Shown here: positions 3,366-46,700 of the stretch, piece by piece
Layout: every line of letters begins with the position of its first letter
Numbering within the stretch: the first letter of the stretch is position 1
Origin: Anadara kagoshimensis
Taxonomy: Eukaryota > Mollusca > Bivalvia > Arcoida > Arcidae
Assembly: GCA_021292105.1 (NCBI GenBank)
Contig: CM037861.1
Coordinates: 52,230,920-52,294,919 of the forward strand
DNA length: 64,000 bases
Direction: 5' to 3'
Program-made: the position numbers and the translations under genes
The notes under the pieces: model-generated
Seen by the model: the letters and a program-made list of their open reading frames with translations, nothing else
Databases searched by the model: none
What the model was told of the DNA's origin: nothing

Positions 3366-5303
3366 AGAGGCCATGTGAGCTTATGGCATGGCGAGGCGTG
3401 CGTCCGTGCGTGCGTGCGTCCGTCCGTGCGCGCGTCAGTAAACTTTAATCTTCTCCTCCGAAACTGCTGGACCAACTGAAACCAAATTTGCCATGGAAGG
3501 TCCTTGACAGAGTCTAACTATAGTTTGTTCAAATCATGGCGATCAAATATCCAAGATGGCCGCTGTTACTAAAAATAGACAAAACCTAAAAAAATCTTCT
3601 TCTGTTGAACCACTCATTGGAGGCAAAAACTGATGTGACATTTGGATTCTACATAGTCTAAACCTTTAAGTTTGTTCATTTCATGAAATTTGGTTTAAAA
3701 ATAGGTTACGCGTTTTTGCGTTTAATTTTGAAAAAAATCGTAAAATATTTTTATATTGTTATAACTTGACTATATCACCAGATAATGACATGGGGTTTTC
3801 AGTTTTGACATATTCTTGTAATTACCTTCAAAATGGTGTCAAGGTCAATTATGAAGGTCATGACCTAATTTTTTACTTTTCTAATATTATTTATTATCTC
3901 GAAAACTATAAACTTTTTGTATAGGCATGTATATTGGAATATTGTTGGTATTAATGTAACGATCATTTTGATATATAGATTAAGGTCATTGGTTCAAAGG
4001 TCAAGGTCACAGATGCGAAAGAATACTGAAATGGTTCATTATCTTATAAACTATGAACTTTTTGTATAGGCATGTATATTAGAATGTTGTAGGTATTGAT
4101 ACAACGATCATTTTGATGTATAGAAAAAGGTCATGGGTCCAAAGGTCAAGGTCACAGTAGCAAAACAATACCAAAATCATTAATTATCTCGAAAACTAAA
4201 CTTTTTGTATAGGCATGTATATTGGAATGTTGTTGGTTTGGATGTAACGATCATTTTGATATATAGATTAAGGTCATTGGTTCAAAGGTCAAGGTCACAG
4301 ATGCGAAAGAAAACTTAAATGGTTCATTATCTTGAAAACTATAAACTTTTTGTATAAGAATATATATGAGAATGTTGTAGGTATCGATACAACGATCATT
4401 TTGATGTATAGAAAAAGGTCATGGGTCAAAAGGTCAAGGTCACGGTTGCAAAACAACACCAAAAAGGTTCATTATCTCGAAAACTATGAACTTTTTGTAT
4501 AGGCATGTATATTGGAATATTGTTAGTATTGATGTAACGATCATTTTGATATATAGATTAAGGTCATTGGTTCAAAGGTCAAGGTCACAGATGCGAAAGA
4601 ATACTGAAAAGGTTCATTATCTTGAAAACTATGAACTTTTTGTATAGGCATGTATATTAGAATATTGTAGGTATTGATACAACGATAACTTTGATGTATA
4701 GAAAAAGATCATGGGTCTAAAGGTCAAGGTCACAGTAGCAAATCAATACCAAAATGGTTCATTATCTTGAAAACTATAAACTTTTTGTATAGGCATGTAT
4801 ATTGGAATATTGTAAGTATTGATGTAACGTTCATTTTGATATATAGATTAAGGTCATTGGTTCAAAGGTCAAGGTCACAGATGCGAAAGAATACTGAAAT
4901 GGTTCATTATCTTGAAAACTATGAACTTTTTGTATAGGCATGTATATTAGAATGTTGTAGGTATTGATACAATGATCATTTTGATGTATAGAAAAAGGTC
5001 ATGGGTCAAAAGGTCAAGGTCACGGTTGCAAAACAATACCAAAAAGGTTCATTATCTCGAAAACTATGAACTTTTTGTATAGGCATGTATATTAGAATAT
5101 TGTTGGTATTGATTCAATGATCATTTTAATATATAGATTATGGTCATTGGTTCGAAGGTCAAGGTCACAGATGCGAGTAGCAAGTTTCATAAATATCTAA
5201 ATATCCACATAAGAGTTATTGCTCCTTAAATGTAGTATTTATTGTGTTTTTGTGCTGTAAACGGCCCAGGTGAGCGGTACAGGCCCTATTGGGCCTCTTG
5301 TTT
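3366..5303 (-). mobile_element. AGGTCA-array element copy 1
   Basis: This non-coding element has palindrome-rich ends (one contains AGGCCCTATTGGGCCT next to CAGGTGAGC) and a core of about nine ~145-bp tandem units. Each unit contains AAAGGTCAAGGTCA. Two unit types alternate: one with gatatatagattaagg, the other with gatgtatagaaaaagg, giving a dimer of about 290 bp. The architecture (unique flanks, palindromic ends, tandem core) resembles the bivalve pearl/HINE class of Helentron-associated elements, which is inference. It lies in an intron of PDZ-LIM gene 1. It is inverted relative to copy 2, which I take as the + reference. Confidence 0.75.
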
Positions 5304-5512
5304 AATTTATTTGACTATATTTTAAGAATTCTACAGGTTCCTTATTCAATAAACCTGCATAAATAAAGATATGTTAAATTATATTTGGATTTCACACTGA
5401 TGGGTGCAGCTAGCTAAACAAGAGATGAACCCTCCCAGAGAACACAACATACAACTAAAACCAGCAAGTCTGCTAAATCAGCTTACAACACAATCCAAGT
5501 AAACACTGAGTC

Positions 5513-7360: not shown

Positions 7361-8048
7361 CAATTACAATTAGTGCTTTATAATTTACAATCATGAAGTG
7401 CCTTACAATTTACAATCATGAAGTGCCTTATAAATTACAGTCAGTGCTTTATAATTTACAATCATGAAGTGCCTTACAATTTACAATCATGAAGTGCCTT
7501 ATAAATTACAGTCAGTGCTTTATAATTTACAATCATGAAGTGCCGTATAATTTACAATCATGAAGTGCCTTATAAATTACAGTCAGTGCTTTATAATTTA
7601 CAATCATGAAGTGCCTTATAATTTACAATCATGAAGTGCCTTATAAATTACAGTCAGTGCTTTATAATTTACAATCATGAAGTGCCGTATAATTTACAAT
7701 CATGAAGTGCCTTATAAATTACAATTGGTGCTTTATGATTTACAATCATGAAGTGCCTTATAATTTATAATCATGAAGTGCCTTATAAATTACAATTGGT
7801 GCTTTATGATTTACAATCATGAAGTGCCTTATAATTTATAATCATGAAGTGCCTTATAAATTACAGTCAGTGCTTTATAATTTACAATCATGAAGTGCCT
7901 TATAATTTATAATCATGAAGTGCCTTATAAATTACAATTGGTGCTTTATGATTTACAATCATGAAGTGCCTTATAATTTATAATCATGAAGTGCCTTATA
8001 AATTAGTCAGTGCTTTATAATTTACAATCATGAAGTGCCTTATAAATA
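7361..8048. repeat. ~71-bp composite minisatellite
   Basis: About nine copies of a three-part unit: two near-identical 25-bp parts (TATAATTTACAATCATGAAG plus TGCCT) and a 21-bp part (TATAAATTACAGTCAGTGCTT). The array shows a higher-order pattern with variants such as ATTGGTGC in later copies. Non-coding. It follows the candidate end of PDZ-LIM gene 1. Confidence 0.85.
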
Positions 8049-10624: not shown

Positions 10625-11988
10625 AATTAAACTGGTGCTTCACATGTTGTAAATGTACCATCACACTGATAAATGACAACAAATAAATAAGTTAAACTGG
10701 TGCTTCACATGTTGTAAATGTACCATCACACTGATAAATAACAACAAATAAATAAGTTAAACTGGTGCTTCACATGTTGTAAATGTACCATCACACTGAT
10801 AAATGACAACAAATAAATAAGTTAAACTGGTGCTTCACATGTTGTAAATGTACCTTCACACTGATAAATAACAACAAATAAATAAGTTAAACTGGTGCTT
10901 CACATGTTGTAAATGTACCATCACACTGATAAATGACAACAAATAAATTAGTTAAACTGGTGCTTCACATGTTGTAAATGTACCATCACACTGATAAATA
11001 ACAACAAATAAATAAATTAAACTGGTGCTTCACATGTTGTAAATGTACCTTCACACTGATAAATAACAACAAATAAATAAGTTAAACTGGTGCTCCACAT
11101 GTTGTAAATGTACCATCACACTGATAAATGACAACAAATAAATAAGTTAAACTGGTGCTCCACATGTTGTAAATGTACCATCACACTGATAAATGACAAA
11201 TAAATAAGTTAAACTGGTGCTTCACATGTTGTAAATGTACCATCACACTGATAAATAACAACAAATAAATAAGTTAAACTGGTGCTTCACATGTTGTAAA
11301 TGTACCATCACACTGATAAATGACAACAAATAAATAAGTTAAACTGGTGCTTCACATGTTGTAAATGTACCATCACACTGATAAATGACAACAAATAAAT
11401 AAGTTAAACTGGTGCTTCACATGTTGTAAATGTACCATCACACTGATAAATGACAACAAATAAATAAGTTAAACTGGTGCTTCACATGTTGTAAATGTAC
11501 TATCACACTGATAAAAACAACAAATAAATAAGTTAAACTGGTGCTTCACATGTTGTAAATGTACCATCACACTGATAAATGACAACAAATAAATAAGTTA
11601 AACTGGTGCTTCACATGTTGTAAATGTACCATCACACTGATAAATGACAACAAATAAATAAGTTAAACTGGTGCTTCACATGTTGTAAATGTACCATCAC
11701 ACTGATAAATGACAACAAATAAATAAGTTAAACTGGTGCTTCACATGTTGTAAATGTACCATCACACTGATAAATAACAAATAAATAAGTTAAACTGGTG
11801 CTTCACATGTTGTAAATGTACCATCACACTGATAAATAACAACAAATAAATAAGTTAAACTGGTGCTTCACATGTTGTAAATGTACCATCACACTGATAA
11901 ATAACAACAAATAAATAAGTTAAACTGGTGCTCCACATGTTGTAAATGTACCATCACACTGATAAATAACAACAAATAATTAAGTTAT
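10625..11988. repeat. 65-bp minisatellite, about 21 copies
   Basis: The unit starts AACTGGTGCTTCACATGTTG and continues with TAAATGTACCATCACACTG and a TAAATRACAACAAATAAATA tail. Copies differ at few positions (GTGCTT/GTGCTC, ACCATC/ACCTTC), so the array is young or homogenised. No ORF. Confidence 0.9.
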
Positions 11989-16700: not shown

Positions 16701-19700
16701 GTTTAAAAAATTTCTTAACGGAGAATGAATTTCATAATAATGTGATTTATAAAATAAAGTACAACATTTAAAACATAGGGAATTTAGCACATGTTTAAAT
16801 TAAAGTTTTTGCGTATTTCTGCATGTGCTCCTTTTAAAAAATATAACTAAAAGTTCAAATTGAATCTAATGAGAGTGATTAGATTTTAACTGAAATTTAA
16901 TCAATAAAATGCAGCAATTATTTAAATCATCAAAGAGATTCAAAAATAGCATTGTGTTTATGATGGAACTATGGTCAATACACTGATTGATAATATCAAA
17001 TAGACAGACACTAAGCCTGCAAAAACTGAGCTGGATTTATTATTGTGACTTGACCTACAGTAATAAAGTCAAAGCATAATGTTGAAGGTACCAGGTTTTC
17101 TGTTTAAATTTTAACCAAGTTTCACCATTAGACCCATAACATTTTACACTATGTGTTTTAGTAAAGGTACAATTAAAGCTATTTCTGAATCTTAACACTG
17201 GCCAAAACTAATATCCAATATGTTTATTCAATCTGAGTCAGGATTTTTGTGTGCTTCCACTTTTATTGATTGATTGATTGATTGATTGATGAATGAGTCA
17301 AGAATTATTTAAATGATTTTTTTATCACAAATATTAGTAAAAATTAAAATCACAAAAAATTTCTTAACTTGTATGATTGACTTAACTATTACGATTATGC
17401 TTTTGTAAACCAGAATACAGCTAGCTCCCATTTAACAGATTTTAGAAAGAATAATAAATGTCAAATTAGTAGGGTTATTACTGACAATGGTAATAATGTT
17501 TGATAATGTGTTAGAGACAGATTTAAATAGAGACATACATGGGACCAAAACAGAAACGTCAAATGTGAAAACTGACAGAGAAACATGGTTCTAAACTGAA
17601 ACATCAAAAGTGAGAAGTGACAAAGAAACAAGAGACCAGAACAGAAACATCAGTGGTGATAACTGAAATTGAAACATTGTTCCAAAACAGAAACATCAGG
17701 GGTGAGAACTGACACTGAAACATTGGTCCAAAACAGAATCATCAGGGGTAAGAACTTAAACTGAAACATGGGTCCAAAACAGAAACATCAGGGGTGAGAA
17801 CTGAAACTGAAACATTGGTCCAAAACAGAAATATAAGGGGTGAGAACTGAAACTGAAACATGGGTCCAAAACAGAAACATCAGGGTGAGAACTGAAACTG
17901 AAACATGGGTCAAAACAGAAACATCAGGGTCAGGGATGAGAACTGTAACTGAAACATGGGTCCAAAACAGAAACATCAGGGGTGAGAACTGACACTGAAA
18001 CATGGGTCAAAACAGAAACATCAGGGGCGAGAACTGACACTAAACATGGGTCAAAACAGAAATATCAGGGATGAGAACTGAAACTGAAACATGGGTCAAA
18101 ACAGAAACATCAGGGGCGAGAACTGACACTGAAACATGGGTCAAAACAGAAACATCAGGGGCAAGAACTGACACTGAAACATGGGTCAAAACAGAAACAT
18201 CAGGAATGAGAACTAAAACTGAAACATGGGTCCAAAACAGAAACATCAGGGGTGAGAACTGAAACTGAAACATTGGTCCAAAGTAAAAACATCAGGGGTG
18301 AGAACTGAAACTGAAACATGGGTCAAAACAGAAACATCAGGGGCGAGAACTGACACTGAAACATGGGTCAAAACAGAAACATCAGGGGCAAGAACTGACA
18401 CTGAAACATGGGTCAAAACAGAAACATCAGGGATGAAATCTGAAACTGAAACATGGGTCCAAAACAGAAACATCAGGGGTGAGAACTGAAACTGAAACAT
18501 TGGTCCAAAACAGAAACATCAGTGGTGATAACTGAAATTGAAACATTGGTCCAAAACAGAAACATCAGGGGTGAGAACTGAAACTAAAACATGGGTCCAA
18601 AACAGAAACATCAGGGGCGAGAACTGACACTGAAACATGGGTCAAAACAGAAACATCAGGGATGAGAACTGAAACTGAAACATGGGTCCAAAACAGAAAC
18701 ATCAGGGCGAGAACTGACACTGAAACATGGGTCAAAACAGAAACATCAGGGGCGAGAACTGACACTGAAACATGGGTCAAAACAGAAACATCAGAACTGA
18801 AACATGGGTCCAAAACAGAACCTTCAGGGGTGAGAACTGAAACTGAAACATTGGTCCAAAGTAGAAACATCAGGGGTGAGAACTGAAACTGAAACATTGG
18901 TCAAAACAGAAACATCAGGGGTGAGAACTGACAAGAGAAACATTGGTCCAAAAGTAAAAATTGAGTTAAAAACAGTTGGCGACAATCCTGAAATTCATCA
19001 TAAATATGCCAAGATAAAACATATGAAAGACAATCCCCAAAACCATGAAAAACACTGATTATAAAACTCCAGAGGAAGAAATTACAAAATGGGGTGTAAC
19101 AAGTCTAGTGTATTCATCATCAGCCTTTAACAAGATTTATATCATGTCTTTTTTCCAAACTAGACTGGGTAATAACAATTATTTCTAGTAATGATTAAGG
19201 AAGATAGAACTTGATAAATTTCATGTTTGTTTACAAATGTTACGGTAAATAGCTAAATTATTATAGCTGGTATCCAAAAAAGACGTAAATAAAATAAGAA
19301 ACATCAACGTAAAAAGACACGTCATCCAGTACAGAAAGCAACGATACATCATCTTCTATCAAAGCAAATTGACAGACTTAGAAACAAATGAAGCATTTTT
19401 GTATCTTGTAACATGAAAAGTTGATTCCATGGTTAAATGAAGGCAATTTCTATTTTCAAGAAAAATGTTCCGCAATAGACTCCTCAAATTTTGACTTCAG
19501 ATATATCATCAAAGATGCTTAATATTTAACAAGGTGAATAGATCCAAAGGTATAGATTACAAATTAAAATAATTTGTCTTCTGTAAGGAAACTTATTGAT
19601 GACTTTAAATATAAAATAACTCAGAATGCATCATTATACTTCACATCAACATCTTGTTTTCCATCATTAATACTTCAGAATAACATAACATAGAGATGTC

Positions 19701-34700: not shown

Positions 34701-37700
34701 TGGGACCTGAAATAGAAGCAAAAAACCCAACATATGAAGTTTGATTGATGTAATTATGATATATATTTAAATTTACCTATTATCTAGAAGTAAACGTTTG
34801 TATATATCTATAGCTTCCTGGTAGTGACTCCGTAAGTAGTGTATCGAAGCCAACGAGAGCTGATCCTCTGTGACATCCTGGAGACTCTGATGATAGTTCA
34901 ACAATCTCTTCTCATCAGCAAACTTGTGGGATAAGTGAAAAAACAACCTGTTTTGTAGATGACTTTTAGGACCTACAAAACACCATAAAAGTTAACACTT
35001 GTTGACCACGCAATGATACTGGATTAATTGTCCAGCTAGGTCACAGTCCAAATGTCAACATTCATCATCATTATAACCAGTACACACACAAACCAACCCA
35101 ATGTATCTTAATTAATATAACAGAAAATGATGAAGTTAAAATGAACATATGTCCATCTAATAAAAATATACTGAAGCTTTAATATATTACTGAAATATTA
35201 AAATTAATTTGCAATATAGAAAAAAGGCTAACAAATTGTCTTGACACAAATGAGAATCTATAAGATAAAAGATCTACAAATTAATGATGATTTCATATGT
35301 GTAACAAAATTACTAAAATTCCACAAGATTGTGGTGAAAGAAAGTTGTGTCACTAAATTGAGTCTTTTTAATGAAACAGGTAGGTGAAGAACTTGAGGAG
35401 TTTAACAATGCTCTTTCTCAGCAACAAATAAAAACCATCTTTAAAAACTTTTTTACATCCTAGCAATATAACTTCCTAATGTTTCCAAGTCCCACTTGCT
35501 ATTCAATGACAATAACACATAATTTTTCTAAGGGACAAATAAATTCAGTGAATTAGGTTCTTTTGTTTTTAGTGATTTGCATTCATGTTCAAAGGGCAAT
35601 TGCTCCCAAAAAATGAGCAAACCAACTTGGGTTTACGATATGTGCATGTTGATGCTCTACACAAAGTTTTATGAAACAGTTCTTCATAGTTTTGGAGAAT
35701 TTGCGCAAACAATAATTTCAGACAGACAGATGGACAGATGAAAAAAGGACGGTTTGGAAACTCAAAATTAATATCCTGCTCTTTCTTCGAAATACCGGGG
35801 ATAAAAACAATTCTTAACCTGTAAATGTGGCTCAATAAAAAATGCATTGTGAAATACTAGGATACCAATGCAAATATATATCTTATATTCAGATGACAAT
35901 AAAATATTATCACAGTGACTATATAAACTGGTATATGATATACATTGTTTATGCATATGGTGTGCAGCAATACAAAATAAAATATGCACAAACAAATCAC
36001 TCTGCATCAATCAAAATTGAAATAATAAAAACAAACAATAAAATATTTTAAAACCAATTTTCAAACAAAAATCTACAAAACACATGTTTACACTTTGATA
36101 AACTCACCATGTGACAAGTCTGATTAATCAAAAGTTTTAACCATGTGCTATTTCTAATTAATGACTCCAAATTTTGTTGTCATTAATGTATTTAAAGAAC
36201 TATTTATGGAACATTGTGTACATTATAATCTAATTTTGCTCAATTCTAAAAATAACTACAACCAATGTGCAACTAAGAATTAACCTTCAATTTTTTTTAG
36301 TGCTGTCAAATTGAAAACCTGATTCTAGATTTTGCAGATCTATTGAACTAATATTACAGCTAGTTCATGTTAGATACACATTTTCTAAAGTCGGGTGTAC
36401 TACTTGAAGGCACCAAAATAATTTAAAGTCAATTCTTTTTATTTACAATATCTATAAAACTTAACGAAAATAATATATAAGTGATTCCATATTCTGGCAA
36501 AATATATATAAGTGATTCAAACATAATATATAATGTTTTTTTTTTTTTGTACTGAAATCATTTTACTCATGAACAAGGAACATCTGATCTAATAGACAAA
36601 CAAACTTTCAACATGTGTATTCATTCATTTCACAAGAAATTGTATGATTTCGATGAAAAATTTAAGTACATATTATACTAGTGTTAATTTTACAACACTT
36701 GACATCCGATTCGAAAAGATACAAAATTCCTTAGATAGGAATGATTATAGTAGCCATACAACCATGAAAATCAATTTCAATCAAATGTCCAATATTATTT
36801 ACTTTTACCTTTTTGTCATCAAGAAAAAGGCTTACATGTGTTTAATTCTTTTTTGTACTGTGGTATAAAAAGACTGGAAGGGGCTATACATGATATAACA
36901 AGAAATTTGGTTCATTGATGAATAAACCAAATTGTCTTTACACTGTTCAACAGTAAGCATTGTAAATAGATTAAAATAAACAAAAGATGTAAAAATAAAA
37001 TGTAACAAAGTTCTTAAACAGTAAACACTTTACCAGAGTCTGTTTCCAATAATCCAGTCTTTCCTATTTTAATTTGTATAACATTTTCTGTATACATATA
37101 TTTATTAAAATTCAACATACATTTTTTTTCAAAAATAATCATTAGACAATAATTAAGCAATATTCAAAATACCATAGTAAATACAGAATGAAAAATTGAC
37201 AGATTGTCGGCCACACCTACATGCTTGTTTTACACGCAAAAAAAAAAAATGAAAACTGGACCTGAATTGTGCCATTTTATGACGTCGCTGACACTAGTAC
37301 TGTACATCATTAGTTGCTGTGGTACTGCTTTGATAGTGATGGCGACCAGTGTTGGAATATAAAAGGTATGGCTGACGATAAGTCAATAAACAAGAGGCCC
37401 AATAGGGCCTGTACCGCTCACCTGGGCCGTTAACAGCACAAAAACACAATAAATACTACATTTAAGGAGCAATAACTCTGATGTGGATATTTAGATATTG
37501 ATGAAACTTGCTACTCGCATCTGTGACCTTGACCTTTGAACCAATGACCATAATCTATATATCAAAATGATGATTGCATCAATACCAACAATATTCTAAT
37601 ATACATGCCTATACAAAAAGTTCATAGTTTTCGAGATAATGAATCTTTTTGGTATTGTTTTGCAACCGTGGCCTTGACCTTTGGACCCAGGACCTTTTTC

Positions 37701-40700
37701 TATACATCAAAAAGATCATTGTATTAATACCTACAATATTCTAATATAAATGGATATATAAAAAGTTTATAGTTTTCAAGATAATTAATGATTTTGGTAT
37801 TGTTTTGCTAATGTGACCTTGACCTTTGGACCCATGACCTTTTTCTATACATCAAAATGATCGTTGTATCAATACCTACAACATTCTAATATACATGCCT
37901 ATACAAAAAGTTCATAGTTTTCAAGATAATGAACCATTTCAGTATTCTTTCGCATCTGTGACCTTGACCTTTAAACCAATGACCTAAATCTATATATCAA
38001 AATGATTGTTACATCAAAACCAAGAACATTCCAATATACATGCCTATATAAAAAGTTTATAGTTTTCGAGATAATGAACCATTTCGGTATTGTTTTGCTT
38101 CTGTGACCTTGACCTTTGGACCCATGACCTTTTTCTATACATCAAAATGATCGTTGTATCTATACCTACAACATTCTAATATACATGCCTATACAAAAAG
38201 TTAATAGTTTTCAAGATAATGAACCATTTCAGTTTTCTTTCGCATCTGTGACCTTGACCTTTGCACCAATGACCTTAATCTATATATCAAAATAATCATT
38301 ACATTGGTCCAAGCACTACTGATGAGGAATTGTATTCCGAAACGGCCGTCTAGTGCTGTAAAATTAAAACTGGTATAATATGTAATTTAAACCCCTGAGC
38401 CGATATCTCTGCTGGTGGCTGGTGCCCCGAGGATATCACCAACTCAGTAGGCAATAATTTCGTATTATTGTCAGAAATATACTATAATTGTCTAAATTTC
38501 CTGCAAGTTAAAATATGAAATTTCTCAAAAACTAAGGTATACTCCCTCATGCAAAGTATTTCCTTAGCTTAATTTGGTAAAATATATTTTGGTCCTTTGG
38601 GTAGCTTTTCAACATCTTCAAAATAATTTTGGTTTCATAACTTTGGTCCAAGCACTACTGATGAGGAATTGTATTCCGAAACGGCCGTCTAGTGCTGTAA
38701 AATTAAAACTGGTATAATATGTAATTTAAACCCCTGAGCCGATATCTCTGCTGGTGGCTGGTGCCCCGAGGATATCACCAACTCAGTAGGCAATAATTTC
38801 GTATTATTGTCAGAAATATACTATAATTGTCTAAATTTCCTGCAAGTTAAAATATGAAATTTCTCAAAAACTAAGGTATACTCCCTCATGCAAAGTATTT
38901 CCTTAGCTTAATTTGGTAAAATATATTTTGGTCCTTTGGGTAGCTTTTCAACATCTTCAAAATAATTTTGGTTTCATAACTTTGGTCCAAGCACTACTGA
39001 TGAGGAATTGTATTCCGAAACGGCCGTCTAGTGCTGTAAAATTAAAACTGGTATAATATGTAATTACATCAATACCAACAATATTCTAATATACATGCCT
39101 ATATAAAAAGTTTATAGTTTTCGAGATAATAAACAATATTAGAAAGGTAAAAAATTAGGTCATGACCTTCATAATTGACCTTGACACCATTTTGAAGGTA
39201 ATACAAGAATATGTCAAAACTAAAAACCCCATGTCATTATCTGGTCATATAGTCAAGTTATAACAATTTAAAAATATTTTACGATTTTTGCAAATTTAAA
39301 CGCAAAAACGCGTAACCTATTTTTTAACCAAATTTCATGAAATGAACAAACTTAAAGGTTAAGACTATGTAGAATCCAAATATCACATCAGTTTTTGCCT
39401 CCAATGAGTGGTTCAAGAGAAGAAGATTTTTTGAGGTTTTGTCTATTTTTAGTAACAGTGGCCATCTTGGATATTCGATCGTCATGATTTGAACAAACTA
39501 TAGTTAGACTCTGTCAAGGACCTTCCATGGCAAATTTGGTTTCATTTGGCCCAGTAGTTTCGGAGGAGAAGATTAAAGTTTACTGACGCACGCACGCACG
39601 CACGCCTCGCCATGCCATAAGCTCACATGGCCATTGGCCAGGTGAGCTAAAAATCCACCCAGTAATCATGAGTAAAATAATAAACAGTAATTTTTTTCAG
39701 AGTTCGAAATTAAGCATTGACCTAAATTTTGTAAATTGTGACCTAGAAATTGACTGATCATTTTTGGAACAGTCTTCATATTGCTACCCTGACTGAATAA
39801 AGACAATAAAACTCTAATAAACAAAAAAACTATATAGACAACAATAAAAAGACTAAGTCCAAAAGCCTTTTATATAGCTAATTACAGTGATTAATGCATG
39901 ACAAATAAGTGAAGTAATATTCAATGTTTTAGACCCCAGTCAAGAGTAGTTCCCTTATACTGAGGCAGTATGGGATAGCATTGGAAGCTGGAGTTAACGT
40001 GGAAAACCACCAACTTTTGGCAAGTGAACAGAATAACTTCCCTACCGTGGATTCTACAACAGTGGGATTTGAACCTATACAGTGAGAGGCATTGAGATTT
40101 ATAAGTGAGTACTTTAGACCACACAGCTATGTACCAAGCCACCCTGCAGAGTAAATGAACAAAAATGTCATTTCCACAGTTAGAGACATAGCAATCAAAG
40201 GATCAGCTCTCTGTGGTTTTTGGTTCTGTTTACTCCACTTTTGCATGGTTTTTGATTATTACAATTTATGCCCTATTCTTTCCTTCTTTTAAAGCATAGA
40301 GTTATCAGTAAAGCTTTTCTTCAAAGCAAGTCAATCTAAAATCTTTAAGAAAAACTTAAATTTGCCCATCAAAAACAAACTTTTTGCTTGGACTCAAGAA
40401 CTAACAACACAAGATCCTTTGTACATCAAGCAAGTTGCCTAAAACTTACTCAGTAAAATCTTTTGCTTGAATTTATTTGCTGAGGTTGGACATTTAAGGA
40501 GCCCAGTGTTAAATAAATAAAAATCAAAAAAGCAATTATGACAAAAATTTCAAATCACTATAGAAAAATTGCAAGCACAATGTGTACATGTATTTATATA
40601 TAACATATAAACTTACCTCTCTGAGAGGCTTCATCTGCTTCTGGATACATTCCTAAGAAGAAATAACAACAAGCTAAATTTGTCCACACATCTGGATGAC

Positions 40701-43700
40701 AACTGTCTTTCTTTGTTAATCTTTCATATTCCTAAAACATAAAATATATACAAAAATCATATGGAAATTTCTCTTCTTATTAAGCAAGTAACTCATCAAG
40801 TGTCACACAATCCATAGAAGCAAAACACTACACTTAGTTTACCACCTTGTCATAATCTTTTTATAATTTGCACATCTACACATTTTACAGATGCACATGA
40901 AAATCTTCAATCAAAACTTGATGCCAACACTGGGACAAGCTTAAGCTTAAGGCTTATAACAAGCATTGATAACATTTACATTTTGGTGAAAATCGTACAT
41001 CTAGATAACATGAAAGTAACTTATAAAACAACATACATTCATATTATTTACCTATAAATGTCCGAAAAAAATCAATCAATTTTCATATTTTATTATCTAA
41101 ATTCTAATGAATTCTTGTTAAAATTCATCATATGAATATTTATTTTATAAACTTGTATCACTGTGAAACATTCAAGGGGATGTTATAAACCATCATATAC
41201 AATACAATCAAGCATCTCTCTATACTGCTAAGGTAGCTCATTTGGTATAGTGCTCTGTTTTTATGTGAGAAGTCAGAGTTTGACAAGACCTGAAGATTGA
41301 CAGTGACCAAGCATTCAGTATTTAGAAATAAACATCACATGGTATTTTGAAAGACACAGACATGGCATGTTAAAGAACCCTCACCCCACCCCACACATTG
41401 CCCTTAGCGCTCTGCAAAGCTCAAAATTTCTGCCACTTCACTAATAGCTGGTAATGTCTTGACATAAGTGAATTATTCTTGACTGGGATGTAAAAATCCA
41501 TTCAAACAGTCAATCAATCCACTACTCTTATATACTTTATATTCTCAGTTAAAACAGGCATTAAAATAGTATTAATTACCGGTATTATATATAAATTGTA
41601 TTTGATAAATCTTGTTAAAATGCAGAATATATGAAAATTTACCTCCATTGATCTTTTATAATCTCCCAAGTGAAAGGCACAATAAGCTATCCATAAATCA
41701 GTCTCATCATTCCCTTTACCACTGTTTCTGTTAAACTAAAAAAAAAACAAGAGGCCCATGGGCCTTAACGCTCACCTGAGGAAGAGTACATATCTTATGC
41801 AGAGGTTCAATGGTCAATGACATTAATAAAGAGAAAATCAAAATTTTCAGCAGTAAGGGCCAATAATATGCAAGTATTTTTGCAAATTAATTATAATAAT
41901 TATTATATAATTATGCTGTATATAACATATTTAAAGTCTAGCTACAATATATTATTTATAAACAGCTAAAACATCTGTATATTAAAATGTACATTAGGCC
42001 AATACCTACAATATTCCAATATACATGCCTATACAAAGAGTTTATAGTTTTTGAGATAATTAACCATTTAAGTATTCGTTTGCATCTTTGACCTTGACCT
42101 TTGAACCTATGACCTTCATTCATATATCAAAATGATTGTTGTGCAAATGCCTACAATATTCCAATATACATGCCTATACAAAAAGTTTATAGTTTTTGAG
42201 ATAATTAACCATTTAAGTATTCGTTCGCGTCTATGACCTTGACCTTTGAACCTATGACCTTCATTCATATATCAAAATGATTGTTAGGCCAATACGTACC
42301 TTATTCCAATATACATGCTTATACAAAAAGTTTATAGTTTTTAAGATAATTAACCATTTAAGTATTCATTTGCATCTATGACCTTGACCTTTGAACCTAT
42401 GACCTTCATTCATATATCAAAATGATCGATAGGCCAATACCTACAATATTCCAATATACATGCCTATACAAAGAGTTTATAGTTTCTGAGATAATTAACC
42501 ATTTAAGTATTAGTTTGCATCTATGACCTTGACCTTTGAACCTATGAACTTCATTCATATATCAAAATGATCGTTGTGCAAATGCCTACAATATTCTAAT
42601 ATACATGCCTATACAAAAAGTTTATAGTTTTTGAGATAATTAACCATTTAAATATTTGTTCGCAGCTATGACCTTGACCTTTGAACCTATGACCTTCATT
42701 CATATATCAAAATGATTGTTAGGCCAATACCTACAATATTCCAATATACATGCCTATACAAAAAGTTGATAGTTATTGAGATAATTAACCATTTAAGTAT
42801 TCGTTCAATTCTATGACCTTGACCTTTGAACCTATGACCTTCATTCATATATCAAAATGATCATTAGGCCAATACCTACGATATTCCAATATACATGCCT
42901 ATACAAAAAGTTTATAGTTTTTGAGATAATTTACCATTTAAGTATTCATTCGCATCTATGATCTTGACCTTTGAACCTATGACCTTCATTCATATATCAA
43001 AATGATCTTTAGGCCAATACCTACAATATTCTAATATACATGCCTATACAAAAAGTTTATAGTTTTTGAGATAATTAACCATTTCATTACTTGTTTACAT
43101 CTGTGACCTTGACCTTTGAACCCATGACCTTTATTTATATATCAAAATGACCATTGTGCCATTACCTACAATATTCAGATATACATGCCTATACAAAAAA
43201 TTCATAGTTTTGCAGATAATTAACTATTTTGGTATTCTTGGACATCTGTGACCTTGACCTTTGAACCCATGACCCTGATCTATGTATCAAAATGATCGTC
43301 ATGTCAATACCTACAAATAACTGAAAATCCTACGCCATTATCACAAGAAATGTTTAAAAAAATAGCATTTTTTATCAAAGGTCAAAAACTAGGACATGAC
43401 CTTGACCTTCGACCTTGACATCAATTGGAAGAAAATTGCAAGACAAGATCAACAGTGAAAACTCCATACAATTATCTTCAGCCATTATGAAGTTATAACA
43501 ATAAATGTCTCATTTTCAAAATTACATAATTTTACGCAAAAAACGCGTAACCTATTTTTCGTCTAATTTTCATGAAAAACACAATTTTAATGTTCCTAGG
43601 TATGCTGAATCCAAATATCCAATCAAAATTTGCCTGCACCTTTTGGTTTCAGAGAAGAAGATTTTTTTGTCTTTTTGCTATTTTTAGTAACAGCGGCCAT

Positions 43701-46700
43701 CTTGTTGGGCGTGGCCAAACCCCGAACACAATTTTGAAAGGCTGTTACCCAGGCATGATAATCAATAAGTTTCATCAAATATGGCCCAGTAGTTTTGGAG
43801 GAGAAGATTAAAATGTAAAGTTTACACACGACACACGACGCACGACGCACGACGGACGACGGACGGTGATAGATTGCAATAGCTCATCTGAGCCTTTGGC
43901 TCAGGTGAGCTAAAAAAAAAACAAATATCACTCTTTAATCTGTACATGAAGTTATTAAACAAGAATTATATGTCTTGTCAGTGTTCTAAACAACAGCCAG
44001 TCTCACAGTCCGAGACTGGTAACTTTTGGGGAAGTACTGGTTACCTATTCAATAGTTTCCTATATATAACAATAGAAAATGTTCAAAGGACTGGTTGAAA
44101 ATTTTGACTTATTTCAAACACTGTTCTTGTCTGTTTTAAGCATAGATTTATACATTGATTTACCATGGTCCATGGCATCAAACTAATTCTATAGAACAGC
44201 TGCTGAAAAAAATAATTCACACTTAAAACTTTTTACTTGTATTCATCAAAATTCCTGATCTAACAACTACTATTACAATAAAACAGTTAACACTCACCTC
44301 CAATAGAGTTATGGCACCAGTATAATCTCTCATAGCTAAAAAATCTTCTACTTTTGGTAATGCCTTTTTCTTTTTATTTTCTTTGGCTGGTGTAGTTGAG
44401 CCAGGCCCAATGGCCGGCTTAGCTCTTGAGAGCATCTGAAATTATAAACAAAATAGGCTTATGATTCGTCAGTTATAAGTATGGACAGGTCAAATGACTG
44501 GCTATGTGATGTAGAACATTTGAAATTGTAAACAACTCAAGCCATTATGTAAATATATACATAGCCACTGTCAGAGTCACTGAGTTTGTGACAGTAAATT
44601 TTAGAATTGTAGTAATTCCAATAAAGTTTGGTAATGTTTGGTGTATTAGTAAAGTTTGGGATTTTTCAATTATTTGAGCATAGTTATCAGGTTATCATAC
44701 ACACCCCTGATTACTATAGCAGTTACTGACTACTGAGCTTAACATTTCTGGGACAGCAGGGCCTTAAACCTTTAAATTGGAAATTTGATAAAAATAAGTT
44801 TAATCACAAATATGAACAGAACTACCAATATTAGCAGGTTCACTATACTCAACATGTAAACACAGAAATAATAAATTTTACGGATAAGCATGTGTTCAAA
44901 ATTATATTTTGCAATGGAAGGTCCAGGACCTTTTGCCTTTATTTTGGGCTACATCCCACATAAAGTTTTGAAAGTCCAACATCAATGTTTAATTATGTTA
45001 TCATATTGAACAATTAGTATAATGACTATTATCCTGGTAAAAAATGGCAGATCCATCAGACTTTTACAGTTTAAATATCAAAGGTCCCATGAGGAAATCA
45101 AAAGGTTCCTGACCTCGGATCCATGTAATTTTCAATCCTTTGCTAGGTAAACAATTTCCAATCACTTGTAATGATGTTTTTTTGGACAACTTGTACCCAG
45201 GACAAGGTGTATTCATGCCAAGACATTTTGTACCCAACCCGAGACAACTTGTACTCAAGAAAGCAATTTCAAGAAAATTAACATTGGCTTGTTTTTTTGA
45301 GATTTTTAACATCTAATAACACATGAAATGTTATCAATCTGAAACTTGTACAGCCAACTGTGAATAGTTTTATTGCTGTGAAATTTGACACAAGCACTCA
45401 TCAAGCAGCATACATACATATGTATGGGCTCGTAAGGCATTTTCGATCACCAGGTGTTTCCGATCACTTATGTAAATTCCGAATGGCAAGGATGCGCAGT
45501 CGAATTTTTTAGGCGGTATTGTCTATTTATAACGTCAGAAGCACGTTTTTTCTACTAGTGTAAACAAATAGTCAAAAGTACTTTCTAGGAAGGTAAAATA
45601 ACTCACATTCTGTCCATGTTGATAAAAACCGCCATTTTTTTATTCCCGATTTTCTTGTATCACAATATGTCCAATTTCTTTTGATCTAATCATTTTAATA
45701 CAATCTATTGTCATCTGTTTACTCTCCGAGCGTTTTGACAAATATCAGTTCATGTGACGTCATCAGTTATAGTCTGTTTCAAGAAAACCGAGGCTGCAAA
45801 GTGGCACCACGTGTTATAGCATAATTGTTATATATGGGGAGCAAGATTATACAACACTTGGTTCTATAAATGCAATTCAACACCATAAAGTGATAACCGC
45901 TACCTGCTCCATCGTTCACAACACATTCTCAACAGATTTTTACAGTTAAAACTATTGATGTTGCATCGGTATATATATTTATATAATATATATAGACATA
46001 TGTCAATATAAGGTTTCTAATTGTTATGAAATCGATGGATGACACACAAATGGGTGAATGGTTGCTGGAATATTACTTACCTTAGGATTTACATGAGGTA
46101 AGATATAATGTTCATGTTTCATGTTAACACCAGGGATTTTTCTGACCTTTTTGGGAAACGGACCTTGGGATGAAATTGGGAAAATGCTCAACAAAAATGT
46201 AATTTTGGGAAAAATCACAACAACATATTAGAAATTCTAGACCACTAGAATACTGGTAATTGAACAAATTATATCGGTGTTCACAGCAAAATAGCAGTCT
46301 TTTTTGTCTCTATATAAATCATCCAGCAAAATGTGGGTTAATATAGATTGAAATCGTTATCAGAACGAGATATCCTCCAAATATGATGATCTTGTGAATT
46401 TTTTTTTCTCAAAAATTGATAAACATAGCTAATTGGGAATTTTTTACTACAGAATTGGGAAAAATGTATGTTTTTTTGCATTGGGAATGGGTCCCTTTAC
46501 CGGACCCTGTGGATACCCAGAAAAATCCCTGAACACTGGCCCGTTTTGAGCCTCAAACACTTTTATTTTCTTGTGTAATACGTCACTACATCACGTGATC
46601 GGATTCACCATTCCGCCATTTTTGTTTACATAGAAATGGGGACTGGTAGGGATTTAGATAAAACATGCTGTGTAATGCTTTGATTGAGCTTTTGTCAGTA

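Follow-up and report, generated by a model that had tools for sequence, protein, structure and literature searches.

Metazoan non-long terminal repeat (non-LTR) retrozymes, including mussel repeats of about 350-390 bp, have been described by Cervera and de la Pena (2020, PMC7229834). According to that paper, most invertebrate retrozyme ribozymes cut as monomers, a dimeric cleavage mode is reported for amphibian retrozymes, and the stem III loop of the axolotl HHR_Amex1 is palindromic. Plant LTR retrozymes are characterized there by type III hammerheads, LTRs, a primer-binding site, a polypurine tract, and 4-bp duplications. A review by the describers of the animal elements (PMC7761336) states that the animal repeats show no conserved motif revealing whose machinery they use. 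Among Penelope-like elements, the one of Anolis prefers to cleave 5'-ATT-3', its reverse transcriptase (RT) begins copying at internal RNA positions close to a stem loop, and these RT starts are where its genomic copies end (PMC11167929); in Terminons a hammerhead is retained as the 3'-terminal fold, adjacent to the priming stretch (PMC6431247). Here we describe a hammerhead-bearing element with units of 339 bp in a 64,000-nucleotide stretch of the bivalve Anadara kagoshimensis (assembly GCA_021292105.1, contig CM037861.1, positions 52,230,920 to 52,294,919 of the forward strand), referred to as the window. It is probably a non-autonomous metazoan non-LTR retrozyme that inserted recently, as a DNA copy made by several laps around one RNA circle.

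The kind of element is already known; this member documents with rare clarity how such elements are copied. The likeness to the metazoan non-LTR retrozymes is one of description, not of sequence, and the cleavage predicted here is dimeric, whereas most of the invertebrate ribozymes cut as monomers (PMC7229834). The palindromic stem III loop is common to our element and HHR_Amex1. With the satellite hammerheads of newt and axolotl, which belong to another host group and are again likened by description and not by sequence, the element shares repeats of 330-350 bp, a weak stem III, and dimeric cleavage, here predicted (PMC7229834). Plant LTR retrozymes (PMC4918200) are likewise ribozyme-bearing non-autonomous retroelements that spread through RNA circles, as would ours. 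Anolis PAc (PMC11167929) and the Terminons (PMC6431247) have a type I hammerhead, tandem or partial-tandem copies, an internal RT start leaving a tail past the ribozyme, and ATT or AT-rich targets, all of which have a counterpart here, a proposed one in the case of the RT start; unlike those Penelope-like elements, however, the element in the window has neither an RT nor an endonuclease gene, and its whole unit is 339 bp. A fixed 3' end and variants fixed per locus are not described in the passages of PMC7229834 that were covered, and neither "junction" nor "truncat" occurs in its main text; we found no published report of either in the literature covered, outside which most subscription papers and supplements lie.

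Results and Discussion

The Insertion in the Window

The first-pass annotation, made from the letters of the window alone, had called the element a retrozyme built of two identical 339-bp monomers without an open reading frame (ORF) and carrying three type I hammerheads at exactly 339-bp spacing. Our analysis supports this assignment. There are 0 differences between the two full monomers (Table 1), and TRF reports an array at 38296-39065 with a period of 339. The longest stop-to-stop run round the unit is 49 aa and none exceeds 25 aa from an ATG; no A box or B box of RNA polymerase III was found in the unit. The entire unit repeats, with nothing between LTR-like ends (primer-binding site and polypurine tract were not searched for). 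Metazoan non-LTR retrozymes are delimited by type I hammerheads in tandem repeats of about 150-450 bp, a GC content below 50%, the lack of a protein-coding region and of LTRs, primer-binding site, and polypurine tract, and dispersed copies whose target-site duplications, where there are any, are longer than 4 bp; here we found three hammerheads in 339-bp units, a GC content of 34.8%, and 40 loci, with a duplication of 6-7 bp in the window.

The three hammerheads are identical to one another and have the anatomy given by the annotation: a 7-pair stem I, CTGATGA, a 5-pair stem II, GAAA, a 2-pair stem III with a GGCC loop, and a cut after GTC. The open stem is stem I, which makes them type I and not the type III hammerheads that plant retrozymes carry in their LTRs. 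They are more than a chance occurrence: a hammerhead descriptor matched 3 places in the window, all on the plus strand, whereas both strands of 200 dinucleotide shuffles gave 0 matches. The covariance-model check that had been proposed was less clear-cut: Rfam Hammerhead_1 could be aligned to each of them, but the score of 17.9 bits (E 0.35 for 1 kb) lies below the gathering score of 34, and a scan of the window at that score listed nothing. A genome search with RF00163 gave none at E 0.001, with 73 of 112,716 candidates scored and 14 control genomes equally silent. Exact ribozyme or tail patterns had 0 matches in viral contigs and 0 in prokaryote genome contigs, as expected.

TTACAT flanks the insertion on both sides, or ATTACAT if the ambiguous base is counted. 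When the flanks were joined with one TTACAT, they aligned without a gap to other copies of the surrounding 145-bp satellite, the best at 94.9% over 176 bp (4038-3863). The copy in the window therefore arose by plain insertion, with 6-7 bp duplicated at the target; this agrees with the target duplication read by the annotation from the same hexamer, and the empty-site comparison backs exactly the boundaries it had given. The annotation had also named a case against itself, in which the array is an internal fragment of a Penelope-like element. We rejected it: both flanks are 145-bp satellite, with no RT or GIY-YIG adjoining, and neither domain was found in a Pfam read of 36720-37520 (minus strand) and 39064-41980 (both strands).

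One 3' End and Scattered 5' Ends

The assembly (1.115 Gb, 36 contigs) was searched with the 339-bp unit. The other tandem copies that the annotation had suggested looking for do exist: the search gave 1490 first-look candidates, of which 40 loci (167 matches) were scored, and all 40 were fetched. Six duplicates (L017, L018, L027, L029, L031, and L042) as well as L010 and L045 were dropped to give a set of 32 independent loci.

The alignment placed the 3' end at unit positions 36-44 in 38/40 loci. L045, which is broken inside its last unit, shares that end, so that 39/40 loci have one end site in common, some 34-44 nt beyond where the ribozyme cuts. L010 is the sole exception; its element stops at unit position 339, exactly at the cut, as though the 3' end of a cleaved RNA had served as template. 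In 24/32 independent loci TATGTA is followed by ATT and in 4 by ATA, with CTA, ATG, GTT, and AAT found once each. Three copies outside the list of 40 also stop after TGTA: one in L053, one in L067 (76% identity), and a decayed copy in the window, which scores 57.2 bits, whereas none of 200 shuffled units exceeds 36.5 (nhmmer E 1.8e-4). ATT follows in the first two and CTT in the decayed copy.

The 5' ends, by contrast, are spread round the unit (R 0.27, p about 0.10, against R 0.999 for the 3' ends; n = 32), and the arrays measure 1.08 to 11.48 units (n = 32). An apparent 5' hotspot at unit position 292 (pieces 292-339) was discarded as a local-alignment effect near the variable position 291, since direct alignment extends most such loci. 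The 5' end coincides with the ribozyme cut in four of the 33 loci counted (L016, L026, L045, and L047, with L010 left out; P 0.0014). This suggests a ribozyme that is active in the animal, and cut linear RNAs as some of the templates.

One alternative is that a long interspersed nuclear element (LINE) copies a linear transcript whose end lies at a poly(A)-type site. Variable 5' truncation is usual for LINE machinery, and the sole ATTAAA of the unit, at positions 13-18, lies 17-22 nt before the 3' end, the usual spacing for such a signal. However, an A-run of at least 6 in the 15 nt after the 3' end was found in 0/32 loci, the signal is present in every unit and yet insertions reach 11.5 units, and variants are fixed in all units of a locus. 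We consider this origin very unlikely.

Variants Fixed within Each Locus

Variants were compared across the 69 units of the 17 independent loci that have two or more nearly complete units. In total 45 variants were fixed in every unit of their own locus, with at least one in each of the 17 loci. When the units were shuffled among loci 500 times, the mean was 5.2 fixed variants (maximum 28) in 2.6 loci (maximum 8). Three fixed variants run through the 11 units of L034; the locus in the window has two, and none that differ among its units. There are also 97 variants within loci, 59 of which occur in one unit and in no other locus, as later mutations would. Because variants are fixed per locus and most others are private to one unit, the arrays look as if one template had been copied in repeated laps, with some change afterwards. 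The annotation had attributed the near-zero divergence to a recent insertion or to one rolling template, and the second part of this proposal now extends beyond the window, on the evidence of the fixed variants, the one 3' end in 39/40 loci, and the scattered 5' ends. These features, like the boundaries and the unit identity, are read directly from the sequences.

An ordinary satellite, in which unequal crossing-over and gene conversion act on a once-inserted unit and the ribozyme is incidental, is another alternative. In its favour, L041 and L046 have variants in several units of their own locus only, as later duplication of units produces. Such a history does not predict a fixed 3' end, and it is at odds with many dispersed short arrays that have differing flanks and one shared 3' end, with the duplication and empty site in the window, and with the ribozyme cores, 87 of which are exact out of the 93 pattern matches that the 32 loci contain. 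We regard it as most improbable.

It is less easy to set aside a linear template in place of a circle, a multimer RNA read from an older array and left uncut, although as a general explanation we find it unlikely. The 5' ends at the ribozyme cut are what run-off on cut linear RNA gives, and by analogy the Anolis element uses unprocessed RNA in vitro (PMC11167929). On the other hand, unit-specific variants of a parental array should then recur in its daughters, and only 19 of the 97 within-locus variants occur in another locus. A linear multimer is a possible template for a share of the insertions.

Predicted Folding of the Ribozyme and the Unit

The following rests on folding prediction. The two-pair stem III closed by GGCC makes ACGGCCGU a palindrome, through which two ribozymes could pair. 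For two separate ribozyme strands the double hammerhead is the unconstrained minimum (-36.7 kcal/mol), and the same holds for a two-ribozyme transcript (38305-38700), at -89.5 kcal/mol compared with -77.9 kcal/mol for two single hammerheads. With only two pairs in stem III, a ribozyme on its own is predicted not to adopt the hammerhead fold, and pairing into the double form to be favoured. From this we infer that cutting needs a neighbouring ribozyme and that a circle of one unit should be fairly well protected against its own ribozyme. A hairpin is predicted at unit positions 22-43, with pair probabilities of 0.73-0.77 in the linear and 0.68-0.72 in the circular RNA; its loop holds the 3' end of the insertions (Table 1).

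Table 1: Features of the retrozyme insertion and its surroundings (positions in the window).
Feature	Position	Strand	Remarks
Retrozyme insertion	38305..39062	+	758 bp, 2.24 units of 339 bp; ends from flanking repeat and gapless empty site
Monomer 1	38351..38689	+	Predicted product of two cuts, a 339-nt RNA; 38351 is unit position 1
Monomer 2	38690..39028	+	Identical to monomer 1
3' tail	39029..39062	+	34 nt, from last ribozyme cut to fixed 3' end
Hammerhead ribozyme 1	38312..38357	+	Core 38319-38350; cut between 38350 and 38351
Hammerhead ribozyme 2	38651..38696	+	Core 38658-38689; cut between 38689 and 38690
Hammerhead ribozyme 3	38990..39035	+	Core 38997-39028; cut between 39028 and 39029
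Predicted hairpin, unit positions 22-43	38372..38393	+	Repeated in monomer 2 at 38711-38732; loop 29-36 holds insertion 3' end
Target-site duplication, left copy ATTACAT (TTACAT without first A)	38298..38304	.	Flank comparison
Target-site duplication, right copy ATTACAT	39063..39069	.	Its ATT is also what the element's next unit would read
145-bp satellite array, left of insertion	37517..38304	.	Satellite copies, flank comparison
145-bp satellite array, right of insertion	39063..39137	.	Satellite copies, flank comparison
Decayed retrozyme copy	36661..36716	-	82% over 56 bp; 3' end at almost identical unit place

Points That Weigh against Copying from One Circle

Several observations speak against this reading of the family. 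Besides the 19 within-locus variants shared with other loci, another 19 of the 97 occur in several units of one locus, and some conversion, recombination, or mixed template may lie behind both groups. The target-site duplication, clear in the window, is weak across loci: the longest flank match reaches at least 6 in 9/32 loci compared with 8.7% of mispaired flanks, with means of 4.44 and 3.67, respectively. Repeats starting at ATT have a p of about 0.02 across loci. The 40 scored loci are those that best match a whole unit, which leaves short and old copies under-represented, and the 5' ends were set by the aligner and may run a few bases into AT-rich flank (in the window, 285 for a true 294).

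The predicted folds contribute further points. The best fold of a single ribozyme has -13.4 kcal/mol and its native hammerhead -8.9 kcal/mol, 4.5 worse. The 339-nt RNA is no more stable than its shuffles (z -0.52 linear, z -0.42 circular), and as a circle it is 58% paired, unlike the highly self-paired circles published for retrozymes, although high self-pairing is a trait described of retrozyme members and not a defining one.

A Possible Copying Cycle and Its Enzyme

The best reading of these sequences is target-primed reverse transcription from one AUU on an RNA circle, with a variable number of laps. A tandem copy would first be transcribed by read-through. Neighbouring hammerheads, each with its weak stem III, would then form a double hammerhead by pairing via the palindrome ACGGCCGU and cleave after GUC, and the 339-nt RNAs released would be ligated by the cell into circles; a circle with one ribozyme would cut poorly and persist. 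In a third step a borrowed reverse transcriptase/endonuclease would nick DNA at AT-rich sites, often ATT, and the DNA end so released would prime at one AUU in the hairpin loop, 35-37 nt past the cut, where the AUU could pair with the ATT end. Finally, the enzyme would lap the circle a variable number of times and stop at a variable point, and such laps and stops would account for the fixed 3' end, the scattered 5' ends, and the near-identical units. Cleavage, circles, priming, and the enzyme are what we infer in this cycle.

A Penelope-like element may supply the machinery, its GIY-YIG endonuclease cutting at ATT and its RT starting internally on the retrozyme RNA. This sharpens the explanation by a circular template and does not oppose it, and we hold it tentatively, as a serious candidate. 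The Anolis element offers a precedent by analogy, with ATT cleavage and an internal RT start near a stem loop (PMC11167929), and the Terminons have the hammerhead as a 3'-terminal fold beside the priming stretch (PMC6431247). The retrozyme has one 3' end just past its hammerhead, in a predicted loop, and mostly at ATT; the fixed internal RT start past a hammerhead and the ATT target of Anolis PAc thus have a counterpart here by analogy only. ORFs with both RT and GIY-YIG are present in the genome (L067 and L056). Nevertheless, no hammerhead of a Penelope-like element itself was found in 24 GIY-YIG loci (50 matches listed, 248 candidates), which hold about 1.5-3 kb downstream and include several near-duplicates; the hammerhead-bearing Penelope-like partner that we looked for in them was therefore not found. 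An Rfam scan of 18 GIY-YIG loci also missed the known retrozyme hammerheads in L053 and L067 and is no control. The 3' ends of three GIY-YIG families are (TA)n-rich, unlike that of the retrozyme, and no tail common to a Penelope-like element and the retrozyme was shown.

Some other features of the GIY-YIG loci were observed. Retrozyme copies lie within about 1.2 kb of GIY-YIG domains in 2/20 such loci (L053 133-346 and L067 2819-3186), which exceeds what the copy number suggests, itself a first-look estimate only. In L064 a 28-bp stretch (2198-2224), about 440 bp past the GIY-YIG ORF, is near-identical to the retrozyme stem III, cut, and stem I, the rest being absent. In L054 and L056 (about 1770-2100) a GIY-YIG/RT element (RT and GIY-YIG for L056) reads on, by eye, into C2H2-zinc-finger-like sequence.

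The Surrounding Satellite and Host Gene

The 145-bp array around the insertion belongs to a larger repeated element that is also found elsewhere in the window. Three copies with a central 145-bp array and shared flanks were seen, at 3369-5304, 37387-39632, and 41978-43704, one of them inverted. Outer sequence is common to the two copies whose ends were compared, and short inverted GCTCACCTGG stretches occur near the ends of the one copy tested. Further tandem arrays lie at 7362-8045 (71-bp units), 10627-11987 (65 bp), and 17537-18953 (46 bp).

On the minus strand, an exon at 34510-34716 matches residues 114-182 of intraflagellar transport protein 56 (IFT56) with E 1.8e-20. A second exon at 40636-40728 (minus) corresponds to IFT56 residues 80-117 with an E of only 0.79, and other TPR proteins score better there. 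The two matches are collinear in IFT56 and the satellite array sits between them; the retrozyme insertion is therefore probably intronic and antisense to an IFT56-like gene. The first of these exons has a tandem copy at 34773-34974 (minus), about 60 bp away and with 82% DNA identity. Both copies are open with AG/GT borders and look like mutually exclusive exons.

Significance for Animal Retrozymes

The fixed 3' end behind the ribozyme, the ATT at the junction, the scattered 5' ends, and the per-locus variants are the machinery signal that the review of animal retrozymes finds lacking (PMC7761336). For any animal that has retrozymes, they open the circle-as-template model to tests that need no more than a genome sequence. 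More speculatively than the borrowing of Penelope machinery in this clam, animal retrozymes in general might be satellites of a Penelope-like retrotransposon, as short interspersed nuclear elements are of LINEs, with the hammerhead and hairpin as recognition and start signal, an ATT end priming on the loop AUU, and the enzyme lapping the circle. If this is true, the genome stores molecular records of single RNA circles, and each multi-unit insertion would be readable as the sequence of one circle once present in the germ line.
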